From assembly GCA_902728285.1 (NCBI GenBank), contig CACVBU010000696.1, positions 1 to 64,000 on the forward strand: a stretch of 64,000 nucleotides of DNA, given 5' to 3'. The position numbers and the translations under genes are program-made. Position 1 is the stretch's first letter. Each line of letters begins with the position of its first letter. Source of the DNA: Clytia hemisphaerica. Taxonomy: Eukaryota > Cnidaria > Hydrozoa > Leptothecata > Clytiidae. Under the pieces are notes generated by a model. It was not told the origin of the DNA. It made no database searches and saw nothing but the letters and a program-made list of their open reading frames with translations. This document shows, one piece after another, positions 13,005 to 57,905 of this stretch.

Positions 13005-13513
13005 TAGAATATTGGAAATTTATTATTTTCATGATTTTTTAATGAAAATAGAAATATATAATGCTGCTGACCCTAGTTTCTTGTTTTGTTTTGGGTGTTT
13101 TGCCTAACTTTTTTGATTTTTTCATTCCAATAACTTCACAAAAAATTTAGACCACTTCTAGGCCAATGTAGAGTACCATAATTTCAAAAATTTTCCCAAC
13201 CATGGTGGGGCCTCCTTAGTCACTATATCATTTAGCCCCTAACTTTTAAAACCGATTCGCCGGCCCTGGTTCCAATCCCTTTGTGATGAATGACTATCAA
13301 GCATTTTATAAAATCGAAATTTACGCTTGCTTTGCATTGTTATGTCTCTTTTACATTAAGTTTTTGATCTCTCAAAGCTTTCTTATATCTTTAGCTATTA
13401 AAACAAAATAGCAACAAGTTGTATTAATCAATTTTACTTTCTTTCATATTTTATTTTCAGATAAATACTACGCAATAAAATAACAATATAAAAGTATAAT
13501 AATAAAGCAAAAG

Positions 13514-35517: not shown

Positions 35518-35822
35518 AAAATGGATAAGAAGATATTTTTTCCGGCGGTCTGTCTACTTTTACGCCGGAATGGATAATGGATGAAAATCTTTGTTTTCAG
35601 CTGTCTAAAGATAATTCGACGGGGGTTGAAAACAAAGTTTTAATCGTATTTTCAGTGGGATTTTGTTAAACTTAGTAAATTTTAAACAAAAGAAGAATCA
35701 GTAGATTTGATATAAATTCTGAATAACTTTTGCATACTTTATATTGCATATAAATAAAATGCTTTTGTGATGTTTTGGGGCAATCTTTGGCTTATACCCC
35801 CGTCTTTGATTTAGCGCCAGAC

Positions 35823-35834
35823 TATAAATAAAAG
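35823..35834 (+). promoter_or_regulatory. TATA-like box before RHOBTB exon A
   Basis: TATAAATAAAAG, about 150 nt upstream of the ATG at 35975. Its presence suggests that exon A has its own promoter rather than being an internal exon. Confidence 0.45.
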
Positions 35835-35974
35835 TCGAGGAAAAGTGAAAGTGCATATAATAATTTACAAGCTTGCTGTTGGAGGGTCAAGTAGCTGATT
35901 TAACTCCCAGAAACTGGCTGAAATATGACAAAAAGGCAATATATCGAAGGTAGTAATTTTAAGTTTTGTTGACC

Positions 35975-37483
35975 ATGAATCATGATAGAGCTAGAGTTTC
36001 TTTAGATGCTTATGATGAGCAACCAAGACAAGAGTATGTCAAATGTGTAGTTGTTGGGGATACAGCGGTCGGCAAGAGCAGATTGATTTGCTCATATGTT
36101 TTTGGTCAACCGGGACTTTCTTTAACTACCCTTTATCAAAGACCACACATACCAACTGTATTTGCAATAGACCAGTATGTGATAGACCTAGCAGTTAGAA
36201 AGCGTGCATCCACGGTTGTTAACGGAGCACCTGTCCAGCTTAGGATTTGGGATACATTTGGTGATCACGAAAAAGACAGACGTTTTTCTTTTCAAAACGC
36301 ACATGTTGTTGTTGTATGTTTCAGTATTGGGTCTTGGTCATCTTTAAGAAATGTAAATGCAAAATGGTATCCTGAAATAAAGAAATATTGTCCAAGAGCT
36401 CCAATCATTTTGGTTGGAACTCAACTTGATAGGAGACATTCTGACCCAACACTTTTCAACCATGCTTCACAAGTCACAACTTTGACTGATGTTCTAAACA
36501 GTAGTTTTAAAGGATTGTGGTGTAAATCAAACAACAACGAATTTGTAAGATCTATTGCTCCAGAGATAGGAAGGCAGACATCAAGAGAGATCAATGCATC
36601 CTCTTATCTAGAAACCAGTATTGTTACAAAACATGGGGTTGACCAAGTTTTTGAAAGTGCCATCAGAGCAGCATTGGTCTACCGTCGTCAAACTAGAGCA
36701 ATGCTGTTTTCATCATATTTGAAATGTGTTGAAGAGCCAGGCATTCAAAAACCTTATTTGCCAGAAAAATTACCTGAGCCAGAAATTCATGCATTTTCAC
36801 CGTATAAATTTTATGAATTCAAAACTCTTCTCAAAGAACAAGGACTCTCAGATGTTACATTTTTAGTTGGCCATGAAATGATCCCTGCACACAGTGTGCC
36901 TTTAATTGCTTCTTCAAATATCATGAAACTACTGTTGTCAATCCCCGAACTTTGCAACCTTTTAGGTTACAAAGAAGTTCCGTCACTTTCTTGTGGGAAC
37001 ATTAAAACAATGGAGGGGTACGTAAATGGGTTTTCTGATTTCAATCTCCCACAAGGCTATCATTCTGTAGAAGTCACACCCAATCAGTTTGGTGTACACA
37101 ATGTTTGTGTCCAAGTTTTAAATGTTGACCCAATCAGTTTCGGATTGGTCTTGGAATATTTATATACTGGAAGTATCAGTAACATACCCGACCCAATACA
37201 ATTGCTGGATGTGGCATCATATCTTCAGGAAGAATTGCTTTTATGTTATCTTTCAAATTTAATCAACAAAGAAGATTTTTTAAACGCAAGTATTAAGAGT
37301 CAATTTCAAGGAGTTCAACAAAAGAATTGTGAAAGTTTATTGGAGCAACCATTTTATGCTGATGTCATTTTTTTGGTTGATGGTATAATGATTCCTGTAC
37401 ACAAGCAAGTTTTGGTATCACAATGTCCTATGATGGATGCAATGTTCAAAGAAGGAGTTTTCAAGGAAAGCATGCTGGAACAG
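35975..37483 (+). CDS. RHOBTB: RHOBTB-type large first exon A (503 codons)
   Basis: Encodes an atypical Rho-like GTPase domain fused to BTB domains. P loop GDTAVGKS (28-35), the RHOBTB-type switch II IWDTFGDH (91-98), a degenerate guanine-specificity loop VGTQLDRRH (147-155) in place of NKxD, and YLETS (211-215). First BTB starts at LSDVTFLVGHEMIPAHS; the second starts at YADVIFLVDGIMIPVHK and is cut at residue 503 by a good donor (CAG|GTATGT) in phase 0. Reading on gives a stop 8 codons later (37506). The true start is the ATG at 35975; upstream in-frame TTG codons were not used. No matching 3' exons were found in the following 16 kb: no WPPxW-coding stretch occurs before the second RHOBTB exon. 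It may be an alternative first exon spliced to 56565, or a truncated paralogue. RHOBTB proteins act as Cullin-3 adaptors. Confidence 0.87.
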
Positions 37484-40400
37484 GTATGTCAATTTTTTCT
37501 TTACTGACTAAATCTGTTTGTTTATTTACCTTTTAGAACATCTCAGTGTTAACTTGATACATTGTCTAATTTATCACTGATTTTTGGTCCACAATTTCCA
37601 AAACTAATCTAAAAATCTCTCCTGGTTTCTTAGTACCAAAACAACAAATTTGACAAAATCTATGCATTGACCAAATGATCTTGTCGTGTATTTAAAGTAA
37701 CTGAGATACACAGAGTTTTTTGTGTTGTTTTTGTTAGTTTTTTTCCAATTTCTGCAGTGAGCACAAATTAAACATAGCTTTGGTTAACAGTTGGGCTCCA
37801 TCAAAATATACTATGCTTTCAAAATTATAAGATATCATAACCACTGACCTTTATATCTTACTTACCTATGACAATCCAATAGTTCCTGTACGATAAGTGA
37901 GTGATATATAATGTATGTTTCTGCTGAACCCGACTAATTTTATGACTATCAAACTCATTTTGTTTTTCATGTCTTGCAAACTTTGAATTTTCAAAGAGTT
38001 TTCAGAAACCACTGAATATAAGTCTGATTTTAAAATAAACTTATGCTAAAGGATTACAAGTTAATTATAAACACCAATATATTGCATATTTTTACTCCAA
38101 ACCCATCAGATTTCCATATATATTTTCCACTTCTAAGCTCGGCCAAAGGGTGGTGGGCTCTGTGATTTGAAGCTGGTGGTGTTTATTTAATTTCTTATTG
38201 AAAATAATTTAAGTTCAAAATTCAAATATATATTTGTAGGCTTCCTGATTAATACTACAATTTTTAAATCTTTTGCTTGAATTCTCAAAATTTTTTTATT
38301 TGAAACTCAAAATTTGTGTTGGAAGTCGTGGTTTTCTGCAAGCTTTTTCACATAGCTGCCTAAATACCAAACCATGATTTTTTGGGGGATTTATTTCTCT
38401 TTTTTTTTTGATAAGACAGGCTAAGCTTAACAAAATAAAAAATTTGCAGTTTCCCCCACAACAGCTTTAGCTTCTGAGATTAGATTTAGCTTCTGAAAAA
38501 GATGTCAGGCTTTTGTTTTTCATTTTGAATATTACTATCTCATCCTTCGAAATTATGAATATAATATACTTTTTTGCTTATCTTTTTTTCTCTTATCATG
38601 TAGATTTTTTTGGATCAAAAAGGTAGCACTGCCATGGTATTATATATTAAATTGCTCCAAATTTGTTAAAGCAATATCTCAGAGTTTGAATCTCCAGGAG
38701 ACGGATAAGTTAGGACCTTTTTCCTGTTCAATTATGATTAAGGTTTTTATAAACGATTCACCATGAACCAAAAGAACATCTTTAGAAGCAGGGGAAAAGG
38801 GAACATAGATTTGTGCATTGATAACAAACATAGCATCCTAAGAATTCTTTGAATGATCTTGCTTCAAAGTTGTGACGTAAATTGTATTTAAGCAAAGATA
38901 AAGTTTTATAGATTTATCACAAATTTATTTTTCTCGTATAGCTTCCTCTTTTAGGTCTTTTTTTTACGTTTGGTTCTTTCAGCTACTAGTACTAAGTTTT
39001 CTTATTTCCATTTTGTTTGTTTTTTATTTTGCAGAGAATGTTTTTGGAATCAAATTTTAGTATTTACTTTCTGAATGATCTTAGAATTATGAAATACTAA
39101 GTATGAAACCTTCTAAAACGGCTATAAGAGTCTTACAGAGGCCAGTCTTAACATATATAGTAAGTTTTCTTTGATAATAAAATTACTATACGAATAATAA
39201 TTGTCTTTCAAGAACAGTCTAAAATGGGCAGCATCGTGTGTGTTATTTTCTTACAATATTATACACCTGTATTCAGTCTGATTCAGTAGGAAGCTTGAAA
39301 ACGAAACCATCAGTGTATTGTTTCTTGCTGTCAATATTCTGTCGTAGTGTCAGTTGTCAAAACGATTTCATTTGAAGCCTTTTAGGCACAAGATTGTTTT
39401 GAAGTGAAAAGCTGATAAAATGTTGTATTCAATTCATTCAAGATAGTGTTATAAACTATTATTAGATATTGTACAGTGGTTTTAGATTAATTTGAGTATA
39501 GCGCTCTCATCACTTATTAAAGGTTAATTGTTTTTACATAAGTGTTCCCGTTTCATATCAGACACATGTTTCATATCAGGACAGTGTCTGCCGTTTGTTA
39601 CATTATGCTAATATAAACAAAAAATGTTTTTCTTTTCATCTTTCTGACCAATCTTGCTCCACATCTGTGTCAATCCAATGTGAAAAAGCTTGTGAATTAA
39701 AATTGATTAGTAAGCAAACGATATCACCCTTATTTAAATAAAAAACCTTTAAGTTAAATTTGTTACATACTATATTACGTAATAACGTCACGAAATACTG
39801 TTTATCAATTTGCACATTCCAGACAAAAGATTAAAAGGTTTTACGGTTTTTCGTAAGAACACGAGGCTTAATTTCGCATAGGGGAATCTGCCTCTAAATA
39901 AAATGAAGTTCAGTCGGAGATTATCTAGAGTTCTTATGAAAAGCTTGTATTTCGATACGGATTTCTAGTTTCTTATCGAAACATTTTCAAGGTCGGTCAT
40001 CTTAAACCTGTTTATCACTTCCCTGTTTTTTATTGTATCGAAAAAGTATAGACTTTAACTTTTATCTCCTTTTTTCAAACGATTTCTACATGAGCCCTTT
40101 TTGTGAATGAATTTCTAAGGAGCTTTCTATCAAATCAATTTTTTTTTGGTTTTATATGTTAGGGTTAGGAAGCTTATCGTTGATGAAGCTTTTCTTAAAA
40201 TATTTTTGTTATAAGATTTATCATTTTTGGAGGTTTGTGTGAGTGAATTGATTGAAAGTGACACTTTGTTTATAAAGAGATGACATTTTATTGGAATTTC
40301 CAAAAGGTCTTTTACATGTTGCAATTCATCATCGTAAATGTCATATAAGCAAGTGCGACCTGAATGAATTCTCTGAATGAATTTTTAGGGTCCGAGCGTT

Positions 40401-40992
40401 GTACATTGAACCTTTTATTTTCCCGACCGTAGGCAAGTTTTTTGAAATAAAAAGATTCCTTTGTGCGTAGTATTTGATTATTTTTCATAGTTCCACCCTT
40501 GGACTACATCCTCACTCACAGGCACTGAATCGAAAATTTTGACTCGTTTAATAATCAATAATTGGAAATATGTTTTTCATTAAAAATTCTAATACCATGC
40601 TTTCCATTTCCATAGCATTAAAATTCGATTGGAACGTGGAGATTTGTCAGCCTACTTCCTATTTTATACATCAAACCTTATAGGGTCTTTTAACAACTTT
40701 TTGTCATTTCATTGGCCAGTTTAATTCCCACGTAAGCGTAAGGGACGAGCTAAAATCAAAGTTTTTTTTTTACTTTTCTTAGAAATAAAAATATTGTATG
40801 GTCTTATACGGGGAATCGCTATAGTTTTGTTTGGCAAGTGGATTACAAATTTTAACCAGTTGAATTTCTAGCTAATTCGCCTGAATTTGATACTTAGAAT
40901 GATGAGTCAAATATTTAGGCCGGTGAATTTTCTAATTCTACCTGGCTAGTACAAACCCCTGGTCATATTTATACATAAATTACACTTATACA
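37484..40992. other. AT-rich non-coding stretch after RHOBTB exon A
   Basis: No gene, RNA gene or clear transposon is supported. If exon A joins the shared tail, this is the start of a 19-kb intron. Open frames here are short, start at random and lack family features. Confidence 0.45.
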
Positions 40993-41132
40993 TACTCTTG
41001 GGTACGTAATGTAAGCGTCCCCCTGCTAATTAATTAACGAAAATTTTCCACCTCAGCGCTTATTAAGCTTTGAGATTTTTTACAACCCCCGTGCTTATTC
41101 CAAACCCCCCGGCTATTAGGTACCCGAGAGTA
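40993..41132. mobile_element. TA-flanked MITE with C-runs, copy 2
   Basis: Left end TACTCTTGGGTACGTAAT; right end, on the minus strand, TACTCTCGGGTACCTAAT. It is bounded by TA. The 140-bp body contains CGTCCCCC, AACCCCCGTGCTTATT and ACCCCCCGG, the same C/G-run plus TTATT pattern as copies at 7826 and 43331. Confidence 0.72.
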
Positions 41133-42019
41133 ATATGCACTTAATTGTTGACAAGCATCGCTTAATACTTTTTTCCGCTTTGTTTCTTCTTCTTTTTCTG
41201 CTATCGTTTATAAATATAGAGACTTGAATGATTGATATATCTTTACTCGTCTTTCCAAATAACCAAGCATTTTTGTATTTTGATTGTAGGAACGTAGGAA
41301 CATTTTCTATTTTTAAAATCCGTTGGTTTCTAGAGAAAATTATCTTTCAATCTTCAAATCTTTTTTTTTGTTGAATACTTAAGTTTTCCAATAAAATTCG
41401 TGGGAGCGATCTTTTGTGCTTTTGACTGACTCGAGGGGAGCGCTTATCGAAAGTCGTCATTAAAATGTGGAGTGCTTTAGTGTTTAGTTTCATGAATATT
41501 TTGTGTAGGTGTTTTTTAAATGTTAAAGCTTATATTCTTCTACGTTTAGAATCGATGCAAAATTTATAAATTATCTTTGTTGTTTTCCTTTTCCAAAATA
41601 CCTTAATATATAAATTTTGCAAAATACCTTTACATATAAATTTCGCAATTACCTTTATGTTGTATAAATTTTGCAAAAAAAACTTTATATTTGGAAGAAT
41701 TTTGAAGATTTTTGTGATTGTCTTTCCATCTGGCTTTAATGATAGCTAGGTGTCTAGTTGTTATGAAAAAGAAGAAGAATCTATTTGTCTATTTAAGAAA
41801 AATAAATCTTTACATATTGTGTGTCTGATAAGAGGATAACTTTAAGTTGAATTATCAAATACTTGATTTAATCTTTTAATGAGTGTCATCAGAGGTGAGA
41901 ACGATTTTTTTAAATCTTCAAACTTTCTCACGATGACATAAAAAGTCCAACTCCAATCAAAATTTCTAAAGGTCATTTCATAGAAGCAAAAATTCAAGAA
42001 CTTGTGTTTGAAGATTGCC

Positions 42020-42178
42020 ACACGTTTTTTTTATAAGAACATCCAAAAATTTCGAAGCCTTCAGATGTTCTTAACTTTTAGAGTTTTAAGCCTAAAAATG
42101 TTCTTAACTTGTTCTCAACATTTTGGCCATCGAAGCCTTATGTTACTTATGTAGTTTCTTCTTATAAAAAAACGTGTA
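42020..42178. mobile_element. ACACG-ended MITE family, copy 1
   Basis: Ends ACACGTTTTTTTTATAAGAA and TTCTTATAAAAAAACGTGT are inverted repeats. The body has GAAGCCTTCAGATGTTCTTA, AAGCCTAAAAATGTTCTTAA and TTTTGGCCATCGAAGCCTTA. At least six other copies lie in this window. Confidence 0.75.
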
Positions 42179-42671
42179 ATTCAGAATAAAAAGAGAAAGT
42201 GTCATTACCAAGTCGTCAAAGGCGTCAATTCCAACAAAATTATCACTAGTGTATATGTATAAGAATTGCGAAGCGATCCAGGCAAGTCACTCGATTCGCA
42301 AGTTGCAAGCAAAATATTTATAGGGTCACGTGATTTTAAAATAGATTCGTAATCAATTCGTAAATACAAACCCCGCGAAACCCCGACAACTGCTAGGGTC
42401 CAGGAAGACTTAAGAGATTTACTCAAACACTTCAGACGTACAAACTTACGATGTTTACTGAGGAAAATTATACAAATTTTTTTATGAATCGCTGGAAAAT
42501 GAGCACTTTCAAATGAATGTGACTTATAGGGTAAAAATATTCCCTTAATCCATTATGCTCTTCTCTACTCTCTAAGAATATTCAATAAAAAGTTCAATAA
42601 TCGTTTTTTCTCGGGAAAGTTTGTCTGCCTTAAAAGCATTTTAAGTATTCTTATTTATTATTTTTTGTTTT

Positions 42672-42752
42672 GAACTTGTTTTACTTCCGGTTTCGAATTC
42701 CTTGAGTTCGAACTTGTTTTACTTCCGGTTTCGAATTCCTTGAGTTCGAACT
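42672..42752. repeat. 38-bp tandem duplication
   Basis: A 38-bp unit starting GAACTTGTTTTACTTCCGG and ending TTCCTTGAGTTC occurs twice head to tail (42672 and 42710), followed by a further partial GAACTTT. Confidence 0.8.
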
Positions 42753-43330
42753 TTCGAATCTTTAATTTCGAACGTTTGAATTATAAAAAGTACATTCGAA
42801 AACTCTTTTTCCAAAATGCAAGTTTTTGACAAACCCCTTAACGAAAGAACTAACATAAACACGTACCCCTGTGTCACCTTACCGCTGGAAAACTTGATGG
42901 AAACATTTCGTCTCCGGTGAAAAAATTACCATCTGGCTTCTTCAAAAAGTTTCCCTTGCAGAGCGAGACCCTAGTGGCAACAAAATTAAACAAACTTGAG
43001 ACATCGGCCGGTTTATTGAGACAGGGATGTGAAATACAGAGAATTTAATGGAAATAAGTTGACTTATGCAATTTCAAAATTCAATAATCATACGCAATTA
43101 GGAATATCGTATAATTGCATCATAAATTCTGAAAATTTTAACAACGTTCTAAAATTATATTAAGACTATTAGTGCTGTAAAATCCTGAGATGAAAATAAT
43201 GAAAAACCAGATAAAAGTAAAGATCTGAGATTTAGAAAGTATTCTTCAACGATTCTACTAAGCAAAATCTCTAAATTTTACTGGCTGTGTATTTTTTCAA
43301 AGTTGGGAAATCTAAAGGCTCTTAAAATTT

Positions 43331-43633
43331 TACTCTTAGGTGCCAAATAAACGGGGGGGGGCGGTTCGAATAAACAGGGGGGTTGGAAAAATTTTTCAAA
43401 TTAAATAAAAGGGGGGACCTAATTACCGGGGGGTTTGGGAAATAGACCTTAAAAAACCCTAAAAAGGGTCAAAGTAGACTAATTTTAGGCTTTTTAGAAT
43501 ACTTTCCTTTTGGTAGCTGGGAATTTTTTCAAAAATTAATAAACGGGGGGTCCTAATAAGGTCCAGGGGGTTGGAAAAAAATCGAAAAATTAACAAGCGG
43601 GGGGGGGGGGCGTTTATTTGGCACCTAAGAGTA
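43331..43633. mobile_element. TA-flanked MITE with G-runs, copy 3
   Basis: Perfect inverted ends of about 23 bp (TACTCTTAGGTGCCAAATAA and its inverse), bounded by TA. The interior has several (T)AATAA..GGGGGG words, as in copy 1 at 7826. The longest G runs here are about 9-10. Confidence 0.8.
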
Positions 43634-44376
43634 AGTATGTTGGAGACAAATATGACAAGTCTTTTACCCTTGAATTGCTGACAAACAGGAGCAAACTCTT
43701 CACATAAAAAAGTAAAAAAAAATCAGTGACTTCTTTCTCGGCTGTGTAGGCTGTATTAATTGTAGCACAGAAATTTAAAACAGTTAAAGTGCATCATAAA
43801 AATAATGTCAAGTTTTGTCGATGTATTTTGACATTTTACAAGTCATTACAATTATCATTATCAACAATAAAATCCTTTAAAATACAATCACATGTCAATA
43901 TATTTCTCTGACCACCAATGCGTATTCATATAAACAACAAACAACAACCACGGAGTCCACATCATTGAGCAAGGGTCGGCCAAGCCAGAATTTAAAAAGC
44001 AACAACAAACAAACAGTTCTTCTTCCACTCAATAAGGGGAGGAATAAATTCTTCATATCCAAAATATACTATCTTTTTCCCATTTCAAAACATACTAAAA
44101 GTCCAAATTCATGTTGTGGTCTCTACTACCAAGAATCAAGATCCAATCATCCAAGCCCAAGGAATGGTTCTCCCACCATCATAATACAGTTCATTTTTTA
44201 GCTTTGAACCTCTTTTTGCAACGAAGCAACAACTCCGTTGAGGCTGCTGTCCTGTTGATGAAACAATAAAAATTCCATCTTCTTTCTTTCTTATTCCACA
44301 GTTTTCATTTCTTTTCATCAAGCACCGTCTGGTCTCTTTTCAATTTCAAAACAACAATGATTTTATTTTTAAAAGA

Positions 44377-44430
44377 CAGAGTCAACATTCGAATTCAGAG
44401 TCAACATTCGAATTCAGAGTCAACATTCCA
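44377..44430. repeat. 19-bp tandem repeat
   Basis: AGAGTCAACATTCGAATTC is repeated head to tail, about 2.7 copies, the last one diverging to CATTCCAAAG. Confidence 0.75.
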
Positions 44431-44928
44431 AAGTCTTTGCCCGAGTCAATGCAACGACTTCTTGAAAAACGAGCGTTTGAACGCTTCTTGAACGCTTCCA
44501 GCCCGCGCTGATTTTCCGATCTCTTCTTTAAATTTCCTAATTTAAACATTAGGGAGATAATCAGAACAGAAACTCGCCCGAAGATTATCTCCGTAACTAT
44601 TTAGATCTGGTATACATCCTCTACACTAAAAACCAATTGTTCCAAATTTACGGAAGCGACGGATAGAAATGTATGAGAAAGTGCCGCCTGATGGATCGAA
44701 ATGATGTTTTCGGTACCGTAGAAAACGCACATCAATTTTTCCTTGGCGCTCCCCTGGTATATAGAATTTAAAGGTACATGCAAAATTATCTTGAATTTTG
44801 ACCAGTTTATTTCAAGCTGATCTTCTTGTTGTTCACAATGAAGCAAAAAACAAAACCTCTAAAGTAATATGATAACAATAATCATCAGCCTGGATTGGCT
44901 AAATTTCAAACATAAGAAGGTCCGTCAT

Positions 44929-45152
44929 ACACTTTTTTCAAAATAAGAACAAACTATAAATAAGAACATAAGGCTTTAATGGCCAAAATGTTAAGAGCAA
45001 ATTAAGAACATAAGGCTTTATCAACTATAGAACGCTGAATTTCATAGGAAAATGGACAGGAATGCTCAAAAAATTTACATTTTGAGGCTTTAAACTCAAA
45101 AAGTTAAGCACACCCCAAGGCTTTAAAAATTTTGGATGTTCTTATAGTGTTA
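44929..45152. mobile_element. ACACG-family MITE, copy 2 (inverted body)
   Basis: ACACTTTTTTCAAAATAAGAA at the left and GGATGTTCTTATAGTGT at the right. The body shows AACATAAGGCTTTAATGGCC and AAATGTTAAGAGCA, the reverse complement of the body in copies at 42020 and 45354. Confidence 0.5.
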
Positions 45153-45353
45153 TAATAATGATAATTATACATTTATTAGTAATACCTCAATTTTGCCCTA
45201 AAACCAAGAACAGTCGAGCCTTAACAGGAATTATCTGCTTTTTATAGAAAAAATGATTTTGTCATATCCTAAAGTTCATATCAATCAAGTTGATTTATAC
45301 CAGAATGCTTCTCTTTTGTGAGATGCATGAATCTTGAAGCGTCATGAAGATTT

Positions 45354-45592
45354 ACACATTTTTTATAAGAACATCCAAAATTTTTGAAACTTTCGGATGT
45401 TCTTCACTTTTTGAGTTTTAAAGCCTAAGAATGTTCTCGACATGTTTTTATTTTCACTTTTTGTGAGTATTTTAGTCGATTTTCCTAAGAAAATAGGTGT
45501 TTTAGGGTCCGCAAAGCCTTACAATGTCCTTAACATTTTAGCCATATAAGCTTTATGTTCTTATATAGTTTGTTCTTATAGAAAAAACATGT
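45354..45592. mobile_element. ACACG-family MITE, copy 3
   Basis: Ends ACACATTTTTTATAAGAACA and TGTTCTTATAGAAAAAACAT. The body has TTTCGGATGTTCTTCAC, AAGCCTAAGAATGTTC and AGCCTTACAATGTCC as in the other copies. Degenerate pieces continue at about 45930-46110. Confidence 0.65.
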
Positions 45593-46717
45593 ATATGAAC
45601 CTTGAAGCATCATGAAGATTTACAACGGGAAGAATGAATACGTGCTTCCTTCTTGTGTTCATAATAATGATTGATTTCGATCGACATCAAGTCATATCAA
45701 CCAATTTTATTGTTTACTAAATCCAAGTAGAAATCAAACATTCGAAACAACATTGATATAATCATGTCAATAAAAAAAACCATCATTTTTTGTGTTAAGC
45801 AAAGCAAGGATGTACAGATCAGTGTTCACTGTGTATTTCATAATCGGAAAGCAAGAGTTATTGAAGCTTGAATTTGAGTTTGGATTTGGTATTGAATGTG
45901 ATTTTTGGCACTTTGAGCCTCAAATTGTTCTTATCCTGTTCTTATTTATAAGGTGTAAAAAAGGTATTTTAGGAGCTATACCCAATTTTTACTACTCTAA
46001 CCCCTAAATTGCTTGAATTTGAGTAATTTTAGGCTCAGCATTGTTCTTAAATTGTTGTTATTTTTTGGCTATTTTGAGCCTCATTGTTCTCATATAAAAA
46101 GTTTATAAGGTAGAATAAAGTGAAGATATAGCATTTACCATTGCATTTTGGTTCTCGAAATTCGCTCTTCTTTATGGCACGTAATGCCAAAGTATTTTTT
46201 CATGTAGATATTTCTATAGACATCAATCAGCACGAGTCCGCACATAATTTTAACGTTGAAGCAAGGAGTTTTTCTTTACAAGAAGTTTTTTTCAAAACGA
46301 TTTAATGGAATCTCGGTAAACCTAAAAGCAACGTCTTAATAGTCTCTGATGAAACACGTTTAAAATTACCTTCAATTTTGGTTGCTCAAAACTCTTTAAA
46401 CATATAGGATGTATCATAAAGGATACCCTGAAACTGGAACATTTAGAACCTTGCCTAAAGATACATTTCTTATTGGACATTCTACTGTATTCATTATCAT
46501 CAATGATGATTTTTTTTCCTCAATAATTCTGTATCAATCAGCACATCCATCAAAAGGAAGCGTGGTTTTAACCTATTAAACTTCTTGTCGTGGTCTATAC
46601 TCTGTAACTTCCCCTTGATTTCTTTGGCATTATCTGCTTAGTATTGCATAAAAGATGATTTTTTGGCATTTCATAAGAAATACTAAAGCCAATATCTGGT
46701 AGGAAACTTTTAATTTC

Positions 46718-46918
46718 GTGGAGACTATTAATTTAGTCAGCCGAGCTGATGGGGCCATCAACCTATACCTCTATCCAGCACACATCGCAGAGAAATTTAA
46801 GAAGTCTAGATTTGAGTTTGAAAGGGAACAACAGTTCCTAAATGATCCAGTTGATAAATCAGGGGTATCGAGACATAAATACCACGTTAATTATCCAACA
46901 AAGTTTCGGACATGACCT
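46718..46918 (+). pseudogene. Unidentified coding-like fragment
   Basis: An open stretch of about 65 codons with balanced composition, unlike its AT-rich surroundings. Its translation includes INLVSRADGAINLYLYPAHI and EKFKKSRFEFEREQQ, ending in a TGA. I do not recognise the family. No upstream exon or good acceptor in phase could be assigned, and no ATG begins it. It might be a remnant exon or a fragment of a mobile element. The rest of 45600-48180 shows nothing recognisable. Confidence 0.25.
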
Positions 46919-48189
46919 TTTTCGAGTTGGTCTGACTTTGTGTAAATGAATCTCCTCTCTTGGCAAAAAAAGTGATCTCGCTTACACTGATTACAGAGCG
47001 ATCGAGATAACTGCTTTATAGATTAATGAATGGAGATTCAATTTGACGACAGATTACTCAATAAAGGAAGTAGGCCGTACCAGTTGCACTGATAGGATAG
47101 ATAAAGGAAAAATCCTTCGCTATTTACAGTGTTATTCCTTCGATGTAAATTTTACTTGTGATAGTAAGACATTAAAACCCTTTTTATGTTGACCCTTCTT
47201 TATCTATCTCTAGTATTGAAAAACTTTATTCAAATAAAAGGTTCTACACTCGACTTTTTTTATTGACCTGATCTTGACCTTTATTTACAAAAATTACTTT
47301 ATAATCATTTTCGGTCATTCATTTCGTCATATAAGTGGACGACTACTCAACGTGGGTACACTTGACATTACAAATAGTTTAATTACTAAGAACACCATGT
47401 TTGTTTTGTTTGACTAATCGTCTCTATTTCAATATTAAGGTAGAGGGTTAAGCAGTAAGAAAGCTCTCGTATTTCCGGGTCCTCGTAGCAGGGTTTAAGG
47501 AAGTAGAAATATCTTGTTATAAAGACATCTTACTTTCGTTATTACTCAGTCAGTTTCTGTTTAATGTATGTAATATGATATTGCGGATACTAGAAAGTTC
47601 AAATGCTGGTGTTTTTCGATCTTACACTTGTATCGCTAGTTAATCTTTTTTTGTCTGATGGCTCTTTGGTTTTAAGACTATTATTAATTAAGTCTCATAA
47701 TGACAGTGTATGTGGTGAACATTGACACGTCTTCTACCACTTATTTGTATGGACGGAGAGATAGTTGAAACATTGTTCTTAAAACTGAGTGGGTAGTATA
47801 TGAGTTAGTACTAGTTTGAGTTTAGACTTTAAGAAAGGAAACATTTTGAAATAAATCGTCGCCACACGGTTTGTTTAGTTGCTTTGAACAAATTATCGCT
47901 AAATTTTTTCCTGCATGTGTCTCTCAACTCGAACTATTTCACGTATTTTGTAATATGCATAACATGAAATCCGTTATCTTACGTAACTATCCGCCAAATA
48001 CTTATTGTTTATCAAACGCTTAAGATTTTCGTTTAGCAGTTCATCATTTGATTTGGAGGTGTTATTGTTTCGTAGTACTATCATACTGTATATACATATA
48101 TTATTATTATTATTATTTGGATATTTCTCTTCTCAAGCAAGTTTCTTGATTAAGTTCAGCTAAATATTTAAGATCCATCTCCGTTCCAA

Positions 48190-48356
48190 GGGGGTAAGGT
48201 TTGATATGTGGCGGAATTCCATAGGAAGATACAAAAATCTGTCAAAAATAACTGGAATTCCATGGGGGTAGCCTTTTAAATCCAGCATCTCCAGCCACAA
48301 AATGATGGACCTCCTCAACAGGGGGTGTACGGTTTTTTTCTGGAAAAGCCCATTGC
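48190..48356. repeat. Fragment of the GGCTATTCCAGAAA family
   Basis: Ends in TTTTCTGGAAAAGCCCATTG, similar to the right end of 60811-61086, and contains CCTCCTCAACAGGGGGTGTAC, close to CCTCCTCAACATAGGGGATAC there. The left half is poorly conserved. Confidence 0.5.
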
Positions 48357-48394
48357 TTTAAAAATAAAAACCTATTTTGATCCTCATGTCTTTT

Positions 48395-48600
48395 CAAAAG
48401 TACGTGAACAATTTACTATTTTAACATTTCCCAAACATCCACTTATTTTATTATACACCGTTGGAAAGATATCATCGAGGAGAATAGTCTAACAGGTTTT
48501 TGAAGCCTTGAAAAATGAAGATTTTCACAGATACCAACAAAAGTGGATGCTTTGAAAATTTTAAAAAATTTAAAAGGTTCCCTTTTTAAGGATCTTGCAG
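48395..48600. repeat. Dispersed repeat, CACCGTTGGAAAGAT family
   Basis: TTATACACCGTTGGAAAGAT followed by CGAGGAGAA also occurs at about 59727-59760, with similar flanks (TTTTCAAAAGTA, TGAAAAATGAAGATTTTCA). It is a two-copy repeat in this window. Confidence 0.6.
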
Positions 48601-48609
48601 GCTCTAAGT

Positions 48610-48750
48610 ATACGTTTTAAAAATTTTTGAAGCCTTCGGATGTTCATAACTTTTTGAGTTTCAAGCCTAAAAATGTTCTTAACTTGTTCTTAACATTTTG
48701 GCCATCGGAGCCTTATGTTCTTATATAGTTTGTTCTTATAAAAAAACTTT
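48610..48750. mobile_element. ACACG-family MITE, copy 4
   Basis: TACGTTTTAAAAATTTTTGAAGCC at the left (end eroded) and GTTTGTTCTTATAAAAAAAC at the right. The body shows AAGCCTTCGGATGTTC, AAGCCTAAAAATGTTCTTAA and TTTTGGCCATCGGAGCC. Confidence 0.6.
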
Positions 48751-50767
48751 TATGCTTATAAATGAAAAAAGAACTGGTATCTACCAAAATCATGACAGTA
48801 TTTTGTTATCATCTTTAGAAAGGCCAGGTTGATCACCAGTTATTCTTTATGTTTTTTACCGATAAAGAAAGTATCGGGTTTTCTTTCAAATGTACAGACG
48901 TTTCAATCATTTGTCAGCTTGTCAACAGCATGCTTTAAAATATTTAGTTATGATTTGTCATTGTGTGACTAGGTTTCCAGATTGCTCAAAGAGACTCCTT
49001 TGTATCTGTTTTAAGTCTGTTTCCGAAAAAACACTGTCTGACCCAGTCATTTTTTGTCTAACCTACTCATTATGTCATCTTAACAAGTCCTGCTGTGACA
49101 TGTTTGAAAGGTTGACGAATTTGAAAGTACGCTGACACTGTCTAATTCGATTTTCAAGGGGAACGGATTTTCAAAGGGAATGGATTTTCATCGGATAAGG
49201 GAAAGTATCGAATACTAGAGTGTCGTTTAGGAGAATTTCTTGTCAACGGTAGCTTTCGATGTTATCGAATCATTGAGCGTATCTAGAAATAGAACGTCGA
49301 ATTTGAAAGAATTAGTATTTACGTGAGCTGAGAAACTGATGATGTCAATAAACCTTTATAGCTATCGTGGTTAGCTTTTGCTTAGGGAAGCTTATACTTA
49401 CACAATCATAGCTTGTGTTTTTAGCCTTGTTAGTGCAACTTTTTATGCAATGTTAGTAGAATTTGTATGTCCTTTGAAAAAGAACTGGCTATTAATTCTA
49501 GCAAGGCTCAAATCAATTGTTCGTTAGTATCCTAGGCAACACCCTTTTTGACGATGTGTAACCCACTCTAAGAAAGTATCGACTTGTCATATACCGACAA
49601 AGCAATCGGCTTTATGACTGTTTTCATGCAGCTATTTCAATTTTTGCCAATCTTCATTTTCTATTTGTCACTTTTGTCCTTTCTTATAGTATCAGGGCAA
49701 AATAAGACGTCAATATTTGGTTTCAAAGGAATTCTGAGCACGAGTTTAATTTGTCCTGACGCTAAGCTGATTTACATGATTTCACTTAATAAAAGTTCCA
49801 GTGAAACAGTAATCAATACAATATATCAATCTATTATTTATCTAAAGGGGAAATAAATGTGGTAGGGGGTATCGATAGATAGGTATAGTTTATTCAAGTT
49901 CGCTATAGAAATTCCCGGGACATTTTTTTGTGAAATATTGAATACATCCTAGGTATATTTTGGATCCACTTGATTAGCTGGGTTGTTTGCACCTTTTTTG
50001 CATACTTTTTCTTGAATCTTAGAAAATTATTATTTAGATATTCAATATTTTAAGGGTTGGTCCCTGTTTTTATGAAGGTTGATATATTGATCTTATTGTG
50101 GGATAAATTTTGCCAATTTTTCTTAGCTCGAACCCCTCTTTATTAAGAATTAGCAAAACACGGAAGACGGATCGAGGTCTTCATTTTCAAAACTTGACGA
50201 GAATCTGGGTCGACTTTTATAAGGCTAGAAAGAAAGAGAAAAGATGGGGGATAATTTAAGGAAGAGAGGGTTTGGCCTAACCCTGTTCCTCATTATATAT
50301 ACGATTTCTTTGTAATACATAATGCTAGTTTCAAGTTTAACACCTTAATCTAACCATAACTGCTAGAAGCTGATTTCATAACTTTTAATGTATTTTGATC
50401 TGTTGCCAGATAATTTGTAAAGTATTTGTCTGGTGATGATGATTAGTTGATAGGTGCCAGTCAGTTAGATGTCGAGATCGATTTATTTCAATGCAATTTA
50501 AACTGTTATTTCAAGTGCTTCACAGTCATCACCACATGGAATTCGAGCAACTAAATCTGTTCTGACACGTCATACTGGCACCTCTTTTTTACCTGACAAA
50601 GGAATATGTATAACTTTTTGTGGTATTCGCAGGCATTGACATTTTTTAGTCGTATTAGTCAATGTTAGATTTTGATTTTATCATATAGAGAAAAACAGAT
50701 TTTGTCATAAAACCAGTATTCTGTACGACTTTTGTGATTTCAAGTTTCGTACAATTTGGTAGAGAGT

Positions 50768-50932
50768 TACAATAGAGTCTCCATAAATCGGCCACGCACG
50801 GAGAACGCAAATCTGTTTGAGTTTTTCGAGAAATTTCGAGTTATGGAGTGAGAATTATAAGACACTGTTAACTGAGGGGACCGTAAAACTTGTTCGAGTT
50901 AAGGAGAAATTCGACTTATAGAGGCTCCAATA
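50768..50932. mobile_element. Pogo/Tigger-like MITE, copy 3
   Basis: Begins TACAATAGAGTCTCCATAAA and ends TAGAGGCTCCAATA. It shares GAAATTTCGAGTTATGGAG and TTGTTCGAGTTAAGGAG with the copy at 18758-18930. Confidence 0.65.
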
Positions 50933-52350
50933 TGTGAAAAGCTATTTAATTTTGTTCGGGTCTGAACTAGGGTGTAAAGTGTCGGTTACTGATAGCATCT
51001 GTTTAATTTAATTTGAAAGATTCAAATCTATTGGTTTTTAACCGTTAGAACGTACAGAATATTATGGTTTTTGATGTTTACAACTTTACGAAAGACTCCA
51101 GATTAAAAAAGAGCAACATTTTTTGGATTCTTACAAGTTATTCAATAAACTGTTAAAACATTGTTCGAAAAAGCCGATTTTCATTTTTGTTATAAACGTG
51201 ACCATCATTCTGTGGCGAATACAAGATAACAGTTCTAAACAAAATTGGCAACATTCTAGTGACGCTGTTATGAATTAATCCGATTCTTGTGACATACCGA
51301 TAAGTATGGAAAGTCCTAAAGCTTTATCCATTAGTTTCTTAGACTGGAGTCGTTTATAATGCGTGTAATACTAATAATACCAATACTAATAATAATAATA
51401 CGGGATTTAGTTTGTATAAAATTGTTCCATTCATTACTTTTTGCTTTATTTCTACTATGTATAAATTAGTCGTCTAGCTTGCTAGACTATTAGTTTCTAC
51501 GCATTCCATATTTCACCACAGGTTTCCACTAAGTTAAGCATTATTTCAAGTAATTCATTAAAAGAATCTTTAAGTTCATTTGATCTGTAAGATAAGGGCA
51601 ATATTAGATTTTAAGTCCTGAAAATCAAGGGTTGCAATACCCCGTTATCATTCCTATAAAAATAAAGATCTTGCTTTTATGTGGTAAGTTTTGTGAGTGC
51701 GGTTGATGCTCTGATGTAATGATTTGATTGTAATCAAGGAACTTGTTGTAATTAATTTGATTGACTGAAAACATGGATATGACTTGATGACGTAATCTTG
51801 ATTAGATTTCAACCAATCGAAAGTGACTGTGATTCAAAAAATGTTAACAAAAATGATTTTCTTTCATTTCCCGTCATATCTTTTTCTGTTTTCTGTATAC
51901 ATATTCAGTTGTTTCATTTTTTTGGTTCGTGGTATATGTTTGTGGTTCGTATAGAGAGGCTGTTCTGGAGACGGAGTGTTTGGTTATGACTGATATGGCT
52001 GGCTTGAATTGAAAATGCTACCTTAGAGCTAACTTTTTAAGTCCTTCGACTCTGGTTATTACCTATTAAAAGACGGCTGATATGTACGACTGACTTTGAG
52101 TTATCGGTGATGATCATATCTGTTAGGTTTTTTACTTCCATAAAGATTTTAGCTACCTTTGGCCCTGTTTGGCTTTTTATTAGTGTAAACATCACGATAT
52201 ATAGTTATCCTAATGTGGTCACTCTGGGGTTTTGCGTTGTCATTTTTAACACCATGTCTGGTTCGAGACGCCTCTGAAACTTGTTAAAGACATTTTCTCA
52301 CAAATAATCTCTTCACTTTCTCTGAAAGTTTTTGGTTCGGGTTTTTGTGT

Positions 52351-52694
52351 CATTACACGCTTTTCTTTATAAGAATGGTGTTTTTTAATCATGATGGATA
52401 TTCTTAACTTTTTGGGGAAAATCATCCTGAAATATTCTCAGAGTATTCTTACGTTAGGATCCGATCTAGTCTGATTTTAGGATGTAATACATACCTCAAG
52501 CAAAGATTTGGCATTTTTGTGAAAGCTTATAGCATTGCTAGGAGATATTTCATGATTACCAGGTAAAATCTTTTAAAAATTGATATTGTTACAGTCAGTT
52601 GGCAAATTCCATGATGGTGGCATATTCTTATTTTTTTTGTCATTTTCATCATGAATAGTCTTATAAAGTATATTCTTATAAAAAAGCGTGTAAT
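52351..52694. mobile_element. ACACG-family MITE, copy 5 (longer subtype)
   Basis: Perfect outer ends CATTACACGCTTTT and AAAAAGCGTGTAATG. The body has ATAAGAATGGTGTTTTTTAA and ATCATCCTGAAATATTCT, shared with the copy at 62308 rather than with the short copies. Confidence 0.75.
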
Positions 52695-53239
52695 GCAAAA
52701 TATTTCTCTACTATTCTGTCGAATTCTCTAGAACATTACTTCACTGTGGATTAATCGGACCTTAAAATGCCAATGATTGCTAAAGTTATAAAGCGTTGCA
52801 GTAATTAGAAGTTTTGAGAGTTGATTGTATTGTCCATAGTGTTGGGAAGAAGAAAAGCTTGGGATAAGCGTAGACGAAAAATCGTACGTGCGACTACGGC
52901 TACGGCGGCCGGAACATTTTATTCGTTCAGTTTTTTCTCCTCTCACTTTCTCAAACTTTGTTTTGGTTCAGAGATGTTATTATTTAGTTGCTCATTAATC
53001 TCCTATCAAACATGATATGTTATACTGTATACATCCTGTCTGACATCTACTAGCTCAAGAAAATTTTCTCTTTTTAATTTCTTTCAAACAAGAAAAAAAA
53101 AGTAATCGATCGGATGAAGAAAAAAGAGCCGAGTTGTTTATGGTAGAGGTGATCTATTGTTTAACGTAAACACGTATAAGCAGTTGACAGAGATTCGAAA
53201 TTTCAAAAGTCACACTCAGCATATTCGTCAATATATAGC

Positions 53240-53248
53240 TATAAAAGG
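53240..53248 (+). promoter_or_regulatory. TATA box before RHOBTB exon B
   Basis: TATAAAAGG, about 100 nt upstream of the ATG at 53348, an independent promoter signal for exon B. Confidence 0.6.
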
Positions 53249-53347
53249 ATACAATGATCGCTGAAGACATGCAGTTGAACTAATTATTACAATATAATCA
53301 ATCATATTGGCGAATAGAATCTTTGTAGGCCAACATAAAGCTTTAAC

Positions 53348-56300
53348 ATGGCTGGAGTTGTCAAGAAAATCAGCCGTCGATTCGGCCCAAAATTGAATGA
53401 AAAGGAAATGAAATGTGTCGTTGTAGGAGATAATGGAATCGGAAAAACTCGTTTAATTTGTTCTTACGTTTATAATCAACCGTGTACCGATATTGATGCA
53501 TTGAACTCACCCACACATACACCGACCATATTTGCCAATCATAACGTCGATAAAAACACGGCAGAATTTCAACTCCGTCATAAGTACGGTCGTCGTAATG
53601 TGAAACTTTTGATATGGGATACATTCGGCGATCATCAGAAGGATCGGGAATATTCTTATAACGATGCCGATATCATATTTGTCTGTTTTAATATCGGAAG
53701 TCTCCAATCATTAGAAAGTGTAGCATCGCATTGGATATACGAGCTTAAGAAGTATTGTAAACATATTCCCGTCGTCCTAGTAGGATTACAAGCCGATCGC
53801 CGACATAACGATCCAAAGAAATACTATAATCATGAACGTAAAATCCGGTCGTTGAGGGAATACCTTCAATGTCCAACTCGGTTATCGACGCGTCGCTCCA
53901 GGCGTAGCAAACGATCCAGATGTATCGATTCTGACATTGCGCGGAAAGTAGCTTCAGATATCGGCGCTCTTTTATATTTCGAAACGTCGGTAGCTACAAA
54001 ATTCGGTGTTAGGGAACTTTTTTCGACTGCCGTTCAAATAGGCATGCTTAAGAAATCACAAAGGACTGAAAATGCATTTCTAAACCGTAAAGCTGAGATG
54101 CTTCAGCCACCCTATTTGAATGACAAATCCAAAGAACCATGTATAAGTGTTAAGCACAAGACAGATTTTTTCTTTCGATCTTTATTCAAAGACTTAACAG
54201 ACACGCCATCAAAACTGACGGATCTTGAATTTGAACTCGATGATGGTACAATATGGGTACATAGTCTAGTTCTAGCATTATCTGTACCAACACTGAAGAC
54301 TTTATTTCAAGACCTATCAACACTATATACAGAGGATTCAAAACCTCGTGATCGATTTTCGTTAGATTTCCCTGGATTCGAACGATGTTCAGTTTCATTT
54401 GAGAATCAGAAACCTCGTTTTCATTTCAAAATTCAAGGCCAAATAAACATTTTCAAAAGCATTTTAGAATTCTATTACACTGGAGATATTTCAGATTTGG
54501 ATAGTTTTGAAGACATTATAGAAATGGCAAATTCGTTGGACTTTAGCGAAGTAGTTCACTATCTATCAGATGATGAGGATTGTTCAAGGCTCCTACTCAG
54601 TGCATACATACAATACATGGGTCAACATTACACGGAAAATAACATTCTATCAGACATAACATTCTTGGTCGGACAAGACTTGGTAGAGATTCCAGCACAT
54701 AGAGTGATTTTATCACAACGCAGTGATGTTTTTTCAGCAATGCTTTTAAATGGTGATTTTGTAGAAAGTTCAACTTGTAAGGTAAGCTATTTCTGCACAT
54801 TCAATTGCTTTTATAGTGTCTTTGCCAATCAGCAAAATGTTTTCTACAAACTTTGTCATTTGTAGTCAGTATACAGTAATAAACTTTGAACTTCTCGTCT
54901 GATTATAATTGGTCTCATGTTTGAGACAAGAGGCTGGTAATGATGATGTATCAGCATAATACCCCTCTTGAGGGCTAAGCATTCTGCACCAAACTCTTGC
55001 TTGGTGATTGTTTATTAGTAGGGTACGGGGCAAATAACTTCTAGGATTTTCGTACATATCTTGCGTGTATAGGCAAGGGTCATAGCCTTCTTAAGGAACC
55101 AGAACATCTAACATCAGTTAAACATATCCAAAACACGAATTTTTGTTTATTTATATTCGTGATTTCCTTTCAGAAACTGTTTCTGTTTGTTTATTTGTCT
55201 TATGAGATATTTTATTTAACATCACATCTAAATTTATTAAGTAAACATGAAAGTGTCTAATTCTAAAACCTCCAGGCCTCAGACATGTCTGAAAAAGCAT
55301 GTTAATACTTGATCGCTTTTAGCAATAAAGAAGGAAAAGAGCAGATACGAATCCTAGCCTAGGCTTTCGATCGGTGCGTGTGCGCTGCTCGGTTACTGTG
55401 TAAAGCGGGAATACAGGTAGTGAGCACCCCACTTTCAATTAATTAATTGCGTAGAAAAAACGCGGGTGACGTCTAGTATAGGCTAGGATGCAGGTAATTT
55501 CCCTTAGTAAGATATAGGGTATATACGTCACATTGAGACACGTTCATTTTACATGAATATAGATTAGAACTATGTTTACATTGCTTCTCTCAGGTTGAAA
55601 GAAAAATATTTTTTTGTTCATTGCTTTAATGAATTTCCTTTCCACTTCCCTCTTACGAGAATCTTCTCATCTGGATGATGACAACAAAATTTTCTTCAGT
55701 TTTTTTTTACTTCCGTATTTCGTTATAACCTGCTCTTTTCCTTTCGACAACATTTATCAAAGCATAATCAATTAATGATTAATTTACTCGTTAATTAAGA
55801 TTCCTTTTATCATTAAGGGTAATTACTGACGATCGTTTAGTCAGCTGATAAGGAGCTGATAAAAATAAAGATGTACGTACACGGGTATATTATGATAGAT
55901 TTACACCTGTTTTTTTTTTAATCCGAGTACCCAACCATTACCAATAGCATACTGATAATAATAAAGCTTTACAGGTTTGCAGGCCACCGTGAAGACACAT
56001 GGGCATCTATAAACCGCTCGTACCGTTTACAAATTATAGAGGCCCATTCTGAAAATTTAACCAAAACACTGACGTAGAGAACATTTTAGTCTTATCTTCT
56101 GCTTATATAGCCCGGTAACCTAGCGACGGAAAGCCGTTTACTGAATCTGTTTTTTAATGGCGATAGCTTCAGCAAGGAGAGCTACATGTTTTTTTATAAG
56201 AAAATCCAAATTTTTTGAAGCCTTCGGATGCCCTTAACATGCTCTTATTTTCACCATTTTTTGGTAATTTTTGACCATTTTCCTAAAAGATATGGTGTTT

Positions 56301-57724
56301 TTGAGTCGGCAAAGCCTTAAAATATTCTTAACTTTTTTTTAACATTTTTGCTATCGAAGCCATTATGTTCTTATATAGTTTGTTCTTATCATAGTTGAAG
56401 TAATGAAAATTATTGTTTCAATACTGACAGTTTCATATTTTTTCAAAAATTTCTTATAAATAAAAAATGTGTAACTTCAAGTGTCTAAAATCTTTTCTTT
56501 AATGACGATAGCTTTAGCAAAAAGAGCTAAAATTTCAAGTGTCGAAATCTTTTTTTTTTCATAGGTTGATTTTCGTGATACCAATCTTGAAAGTTTCCGA
56601 TCCGTGTTGGAATACCTCTACACTGGTGAATGCAAGGAGATGTCGGATTTGCACGGAACACTTCAATTGGCTAACTTCTTATGTTTGAGGCATTTGGTAA
56701 TGATCTGTGAAGATCGTATCGCGAAATATATCACACAGATGAGACAAGAAGAGAATAATGATGTCTATGAATATGTTATTGGTACGTATAATCTGCTTCC
56801 CCCAGCCGGGTCATACCAAAGATTCCCAAAATGGTACTTTATGCCTCTCTGCTTGATGCTCAGCAATTATGTGAAGGATCAAGGATATGTGGAGCAATCC
56901 AGAGAGAAAGAGTGGCGCCCTCCCCTACCTTCGGGTGGATAGCTATCGAAAGAGGAGCCTTCGGGTCGCCTCCGACTGCGGTCGCAGACTTATTTACTTA
57001 TAATCTGTTTCCACAAAGGGATTTGTTTGATTTTCTGGAAGAGCAAATTTCAACTTAATGCTGGCAGTCCTCCCTGCTCTGTTCTGGTTTTATGATTTAT
57101 TTTCAATTTTTTCAAAATTTTAATCAACTTTAGCCCTTAAATTTTTGCCAAGCTTTCAATAAATATTCATTCAAAATATGATAAGAAACTATTTGGACTG
57201 GACTTTTTTTTAACTACAGGAGAGATTGGGGAGTATCAAAATCTTTGAAAGTCTTTTAATGCTCCTTTAAATGTTTTTGGGGGAGTTTCATTCTCATAAA
57301 ATGAATGGAAAACCATTCGGGTGCATAGTCTTTTTGTGTACTCATAAACCTTGATGGAATGTTCGTTGATCCTGCAATGTGAACTTTTATATCACTTGCT
57401 GAATAAATCAATATGACCAATTCCTTAATATCTTTTTCAGGATCGTATATTCTTGGTGAATACCACAATGCTCCACAATTGTCAGCATGGTGTCTTCATT
57501 TCATGTCGACCAACTATAACGATTTGTGTCGTCACCAGAAAAAAGAGATGAAGAATTCACTTGATGAGGAAACCTTGAAGCATTTGGAGGAACATCGTTG
57601 GCCACCTGTCTGGTATTTGAAAGAACAAGATTATTATGAGAAGACCGTCCAAAGAATGCTGACTGAGCAAAATGAGAAGCGGGAACGAAAGAAAAGGAAA
57701 CGAATCTGTTCTGGATGTTTTTGA
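53348..57724 (+). CDS. RHOBTB: RHOBTB family protein, complete three-exon model
   Basis: Exons 53348-54781, 56565-56781 and 57441-57724 (1434, 217 and 284 nt; phases 0 and 1) give 644 residues; human RHOBTB1 is 696. GTPase domain: P loop GDNGIGKT (27-34), WDTFGDH (90-96), LVGLQADRRH (144-153, not NKxD) and FETS (211-214). A basic loop RRSRRSKRSR lies at about 182-191. First BTB near LTDLEFELDDGTIWVHSLVL; second BTB near LSDITFLVGQDLVEIPAHRV, continued in exon 2 (FRSVLEYLYTGECKEMSD). The C-terminal RHOBTB region has GEYHNAPQLSAWCLHFMSTN and HRWPPVWYLKE, nearly identical to the vertebrate signature. The tail is basic and ends CSGCF, with no CAAX box. Intron 1 holds MITEs (about 55351-55489 and 56184-56473); intron 2 a GC-richer insert (about 56796-57055). 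Family role: Cullin-3 substrate adaptor with a GTPase domain that probably does not cycle normally. Confidence 0.93.
55351..55489. mobile_element. Possible MITE in RHOBTB intron 1
   Basis: ATCCTAGCCTAGGC at the left and TATAGGCTAGGAT at the right are inverted ends of about 12 bp around a GC-richer core. Short ends and no clear target duplication keep this tentative. Confidence 0.4.
56184..56473. mobile_element. ACACG-family MITE, copy 6
   Basis: ACATGTTTTTTTATAAGAAA at the left and CTTATAAATAAAAAATGTGT at the right. The body has GAAGCCTTCGGATGCCCTTA and TTTTTGCTATCGAAGCC. Near its end TTGTTCTTATCATAG suggests an internal insertion of about 70 bp. It ends about 90 bp before RHOBTB exon 2. Confidence 0.65.
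56796..57055. repeat. GC-richer insert in RHOBTB intron 2
   Basis: Between CCCCCAGCCGGGTCATACC and CAAATTTCAACTTAATGC the GC content is clearly above that of the flanking intron, and both plus frames are partly open. The part AAAATGGTACTTTATGCCTC resembles SINE-like sequence known from several invertebrates (from memory, unverified). It is not part of the RHOBTB reading frame. Confidence 0.35.
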
Positions 57725-57734
57725 TTTGGTTAGT

Positions 57735-57905
57735 TTTTTACGTGGTAACTCCTGGTTGGTTTGATTGGTCACGTGATTACTGCTGATTGGTTGGATCGGT
57801 CACGTGATTACTTCTGATTGGATTGATCGGTCACATGATCACTTCTGATTGTTTGAATCGGTCACGTGATTACTTTGATTGGTTGGATCTGTCACGTGAT
57901 CACTA
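57735..57905. repeat. 31-bp minisatellite with CACGTG and ATTGG motifs
   Basis: GTCACGTGAT occurs at 57768, 57799, 57861 and 57891, with a variant (CACATG) at 57830, spaced 31, 31, 31 and 30 bp. Between them lies TCTGATTGGTTGGATCG or close variants. Each unit therefore pairs an E-box (the extended form GTCACGTGA is bound by the MITF/TFE family) with an inverted CCAAT box. It starts within 50 bp of the RHOBTB stop codon, so it may be in the 3' UTR or act as a regulatory array. Confidence 0.85.

Follow-up and report, generated by a model that had tools for sequence, protein, structure and literature searches.

A RhoBTB locus of Clytia hemisphaerica with two diverged head exons and one tail that they probably share

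The RhoBTB locus described here raises the question of how two large, diverged head exons (A and B) are completed where a single tail is recognised, and in particular whether the upstream head reaches the tail that lies behind the downstream one. The window, meaning the whole stretch of 64,000 nucleotides that was analysed, represents bases 1-64000 of the 85,379-bp contig C483, within an assembly of 417 Mb and 951 contigs. The arrangement that fits best is a single RhoBTB gene in which A and B are alternative first exons and probably share one tail.

Two RhoBTB heads and one tail

The features of the locus are the following:
35822-35830, plus strand: TATA-like box CTATAAATA, 153 bp upstream of the ATG of A, from a pattern scan and weak alone
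35975-37483, plus strand: head exon A, 503 codons, with a RhoBTB GTPase, BTB1 and the first half of BTB2; phase-0 donor CAG|GTATGT
37484-53347, plus strand: inter-head stretch of 15.9 kb, a putative part of the 19-kb intron of A, with no tail homologue found
53239-53247, plus strand: TATA-like box CTATAAAAG, 109 bp upstream of the ATG of B, from a pattern scan and weak alone
53348-54781, plus strand: head exon B, 478 codons, with a diverged RhoBTB GTPase, a weaker BTB1 and the first half of BTB2; phase-0 donor AAG|GTAAGC
56565-56781, plus strand: tail exon 2, probably shared, with the second half of BTB2; phase-0 acceptor, end in phase 1
57441-57724, plus strand: tail exon 3, probably shared, with the C-terminal region, including HRWPPVWYLKE, and the stop codon

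The first-pass annotation had assigned to both heads a GTPase, a BTB domain and the start of a second one, and the open frames and Pfam (Ras and BTB in A as well as in B) bear out this content together with the lengths and limits of both exons. The heads align over almost their full length (158/496 identical, E=2e-69; 34% in a second alignment), and an open frame of 503 codons has a chance probability of ~4e-17 at the local base composition, so that a chance origin of the heads is out of the question. The claim that both exons halt in phase 0 at the identical point of BTB2 also holds, this point lying in the alignment four residues past a shared F-x-E-S. Each head is preceded by a short open frame, one of 15 codons at 35925-35972, ending 2 nt before the ATG of A, and one of 9 codons at 53254-53283 ahead of B. 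Hexamer coding scores, for which the training set amounted to just 19.6 kb, came out negative for the known exons A, B and 3 and were discarded.

Both tail exons are present where they had been placed, at 56565 and 57441, and their extents could be refined to those listed above. In Pfam, the tail holds the second half of a BTB domain (profile 55-107). The BTB2 half of A, which scores 30.1 bits alone, becomes one BTB domain covering profile positions 3-107 with 71.4 bits when joined in frame to the tail, and that of B rises from 35.2 to 76.3 bits; a complete BTB2 arises solely upon this joining. The joined products, of 669 residues for A and 644 residues for B, read through to one stop, and their C-terminal HRWPPVWYLKE agrees with an approximate human RHOBTB2 sequence. 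Starting 16 bp past this stop, and likely within the 3' UTR, a 31-bp unit is repeated 5.4 times in tandem (57740-57904).

Membership in the RhoBTB family is indicated for both heads by their GTPase domains. RhoBTB1 and RhoBTB2 are described as having insertions before and after switch I (6 and 10 residues) and a two-residue deletion in switch II (PMC4931677). Compared with Rac1, the best PDB chain for the GTPase of A (116 bits), this domain shows insertions of 8 and 10 residues around switch I and lacks 2 in switch II, while that of B, compared with RHO1 (its best chain, 87 bits), has 8 and 9 extra residues and the same shortening; both heads therefore carry the switch I insertions and the switch II deletion of the family. 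No RhoBTB was found in solved-structure searches among the best 60 of 267 matches, nor among the best 60 of 229. In addition, the BTB1 piece of each head gives two BTB stretches, as in a bipartite BTB1 with an insertion. In A, the best of them is N-terminal (profile 1-42); in B it is C-terminal (profile 60-100), suggesting that the N-terminal part of BTB1 is weak in B. A second BTB domain and the C-terminal region are added once the tail is joined, for A provided that splicing to the tail occurs. Pfam gave no match to a BACK domain, and a search of viral and prokaryote contigs found no relatives.

The two heads have not departed equally from the family norm. With an approximate human RHOBTB2 sequence as reference, which is a rough yardstick for all identities measured on it, the GTPase is identical at 100/202 positions in A (50%) and 73/198 in B (37%), the linker plus BTB1 at 58/198 (29%) and 26/171 (15%), the first half of BTB2 at 19/58 (33%) and 19/54 (35%), and tail exons 2 and 3 at 29/71 and 36/90. 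By these identities and the PDB scores, A is, at the level of sequence, the more canonical head, closer to ordinary Rho GTPases, whereas B has diverged. One observation runs counter to this: where Ras has G12, B holds the asparagine described as a feature of RhoBTB1/2 (PMC4931677), and A a threonine. At the G4 position, B reads LQAD instead of TQLD.

Elsewhere in the window, a glycosyltransferase of family 8, a Sas10/Utp3 protein (neuroguidin-like) and Mediator 16 are encoded at 9975-15967 in single open frames of 443, 324 and 827 aa; with three neighbouring genes each in one long frame, this region may be intron-poor, like the RhoBTB heads. A 218-aa frame on the minus strand (21034-21690), with a weak Pfam match to RVT_1 (E=1e-4, below the curated cut-off), is probably part of a retroelement.

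The search for a second tail

A sensitive protein search of 37.5-53.3 kb for diverged tail exons found none; at a power of ~90%, this gap of 15.9 kb gave no tail that had diverged to the same extent as the heads. This power was estimated with pieces of B, which find A at E<0.1 in 76/82 cases at the length of exon 2 and in 69/78 at the length of exon 3. The best hits in the gap were at E=0.11 for exon 2 (minus strand, gapped) and at E=0.37 for exon 3; the latter, which is the best plus-strand hit (48502-48552), runs into an immediate stop and is expected by chance. Other terminal exons for A were rejected as well, the longest phase-0 frame that follows a fair acceptor in the gap having 74 codons (206 acceptors), compared with 106 codons in one control stretch (229 acceptors) and 93 in another (72 acceptors); a short, unrelated terminal exon for A may still lie there. 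A dispersed repeat of ~63 bp occurs between the heads at 42027, 45359 and 48602, and again in the intron of B at 56190. The statement of the first-pass annotation that no plus-strand WPPxW lies between A and B agrees with a six-frame scan, where the motif has one occurrence on the whole contig, at 57596.

Across the assembly, head A as query gave 19 matches, among which solely A and B reach past the GTPase part, the other 17 reaching no further than residue 240. Used as queries, exon 2 and exon 3 recovered themselves alone at E<=10 across the 951 contigs. As a control, the same type of search with a 110-aa piece of B, which begins at the end of BTB1 and reaches the donor, finds A at E=0.0027 and 31% identity, with one BTB match on another contig ranking above it and six more below. 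The genome search scores the best candidates alone, and its first pass gave one candidate for each tail exon. Its listing for exon 2 omits partial similarities to BTB1 of both heads (30-33% identity over 40-54 residues), which a search confined to the contig does detect. With short queries the genome-wide search thus has a lower sensitivity than would appear from the control, and a second tail of weaker similarity elsewhere in the genome could be missed; the assembly, moreover, may be incomplete.

Among the Pfam BTB matches that start, like exon 2, at profile position 53, C22:468179 is the sole one that lacks a listed first half on its contig. This candidate (C22:468179-468346) was rejected as a second RhoBTB tail, being 26% identical to exon 2 (E=0.002), with an apparent first half seen by eye upstream and no exon-3 tail in the surrounding 9.9 kb. 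On the same contig, C22:469576-470580 holds a repetitive open frame similar to that of L009 2827-3369, both with WVNIWGCFFHF and FGAWGRVFRQNEAKTLGQPGDFKN, and these frames are probably a dispersed repeat. Matching or near-matching BTB hits in the contig pairs C397/C417 and C207/C435 indicate that the assembly may hold some uncollapsed haplotypes; RhoBTB head A was found once.

Splicing of the heads and rival readings of A

Measured with approximate matrices against the plus-strand sites of the window, the donor of A lies at the 99.6th percentile of GTs, that of B at the 99.8th, and the exon-2 acceptor at the 99.9th. By the same measure, no good acceptor is present within 100 bp upstream of the ATG of B, where all five AGs are at or below the 68th percentile. 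Skipping of a downstream first exon is known from protocadherin-type loci. The locus combines tandem homologous first exons, whose in-frame donors are of equal phase, with a single constant set of 3' exons, within the sensitivity of the genome search. The TATA-like boxes noted in the first-pass annotation do exist upstream of both heads, although as evidence they weigh little, since CTATAAAWR has 11 matches on both strands of the window, compared with 5.4 expected.

In the proposed arrangement, A and B would each stand behind a promoter of their own. Transcripts started at A are predicted to join 37483 to 56565 and to pass over B, which as a first exon would lack a usable 3' splice site, while those started at B would join 54781 to 56565. 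From the middle of BTB2 to the C-terminus the two products would be the same; the GTPase, BTB1 and the initial half of BTB2 would differ, and the products may have different roles. The pair may have originated when a head exon and its promoter, or alternatively the gene, underwent tandem duplication, one tail being lost afterwards in the second case, after which A would have stayed nearer the family norm and B would have diverged, chiefly in BTB1. An intron of 19 kb is within the ordinary range, as the first introns of the two scallop RhoBTB genes measure 11.3 and 13.4 kb and those of bivalve Rho genes reach 28.4 kb (PMC4669188).

Splicing of A over 19 kb to the shared tail, which had been put forward from the first inspection of the locus, is the best-supported reading, given the one tail found, the preserved BTB2 half, the strong donor, the fitting frames and the lack of a good acceptor close before B; it leaves some probability to an A that is truncated or whose tail is lost or unassembled. 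One argument for it is conservation, since a half domain that is never completed would presumably have decayed by the time the heads had diverged to 32-34% identity, and A should consequently use the tail. Against sharing, B alone of the two heads lies close to the tail, and with heads so dissimilar one shared exon must fit two unlike BTB2 halves.

In a rival reading, which we regard as unlikely, A would be a separate truncated gene, a whole-gene tandem duplicate that lost its tail and ends by intron retention or intronic polyadenylation with a product of ~511 aa (GTPase, BTB1 and half of BTB2). Its frame continues for 7 codons beyond the donor to a stop ending at 37507, and AATAAA/ATTAAA signals follow at 37767 and 38034, with others at 38434, 38646 and 39176 (five in the first 2 kb), which makes a truncated product possible. 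Loss of the link to constant exons is, furthermore, a proposed fate of clustered protocadherin exons and one of the two origins put forward for Pcdh-beta in a review (PMC7811963). Nevertheless, the uncompleted BTB half of such a gene should decay, yet that of A keeps its 30.1 bits and is about as near to the approximate human RHOBTB2 as that of B (19/58 vs 19/54), and the strong donor has been kept at the same residue as in B.

Less probable still is a tail proper to A that is missing from the assembly, misplaced in it or diverged past recognition. The shortness of the contig (just 85 kb), a search power in the gap that falls short of 100% and the weaker performance of the genome-wide search with short queries would be consistent with it, against which stand a window free of N bases, a search of all 951 contigs that gave no further copy of either tail exon at E<=10 although a 31%-identical paralogue was found by the same means, and the apparent first half and missing exon-3 tail of the sole unpaired BTB candidate. 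Finally, expression of A is putative, and A might be a pseudogene or an unexpressed relic; this is very improbable for an exon with 503 codons open despite the divergence of the heads, with intact RhoBTB GTPase hallmarks and with a sequence nearer to other Rho GTPases than that of B.

Should the tail serve A as well as B, diversification of this Rho-family ubiquitin-ligase adaptor would have proceeded through whole alternative head exons and not through full gene duplication. Sharing would also turn the joint within the BTB domain into a natural test of how much change is tolerated in one BTB half with a constant partner half, and gene counts based on domain searches could take one such gene for two, or a working head for a broken gene. 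The shared-tail arrangement further allows a rather speculative model, in which a putative promoter-driven switch would select between two ubiquitin-ligase adaptors with a common C-terminal part. A would act as an ordinary RhoBTB, and B, through its altered GTPase and weakened first BTB, might dimerise with A and recruit cullin 3 poorly, constituting a built-in antagonist.

Comparison with known systems

The layout of the locus is known from other genes, and RhoBTB is a family without precedent for it among the papers listed in the literature searches, which took in few subscription papers and gave no RhoBTB gene with alternative head exons. For RHOBTB1, an alternative 3' splice site, rather than an alternative first exon, is described (PMC7477197), and what PMC13313548 says on isoforms has no bearing on alternative heads. 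The products themselves resemble mammalian RhoBTB1/2, which have a GTPase with switch I insertions, two BTB domains and a C-terminal region (PMC4931677), and their 644 and 669 aa fall inside the mammalian RhoBTB span of 611-727 aa (PMC4931677, PMC4669188). The gene structure is different from that of both scallop RhoBTB genes, which have nine exons, whereas the head is here one exon; and unlike the three bivalves listed with one RhoBTB gene each (PMC4669188), the locus has its head doubled before one tail.

Closer parallels in layout are found in UGT1 and GCNT2 of vertebrates, where tandem large first exons are spliced, one at a time, to a small constant exon set, GCNT2 having one to three variable exons depending on the species, close to the scale of the RhoBTB locus (PMC1885805). 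Contrary to the RhoBTB heads, with their 32-34% identity, the variable exons of these genes are reported to resemble one another very closely, and they encode enzymes (PMC1885805). In addition, the splice joint of the RhoBTB locus falls inside a domain, and the splicing that is established for UGT1 and GCNT2 is a prediction here. Gr39a of Drosophila also has several large first exons, which encode most of the protein and are completed by three small shared exons; it differs in encoding a chemoreceptor, in its four heads in D. melanogaster (with a fifth in most of the other species examined in that study) and in isoforms known to be expressed (PMC2204066).

The alpha and gamma protocadherins likewise join promoter-linked variable exons onto constant exons, although with more than 12 variable exons per cluster and a stochastic promoter choice (PMC7811963), compared with the two heads of the RhoBTB locus. 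The term 'protocadherin-like', given to the locus in the first-pass annotation, is accordingly right for its layout, while UGT1, GCNT2 and Gr39a are nearer to it in scale.
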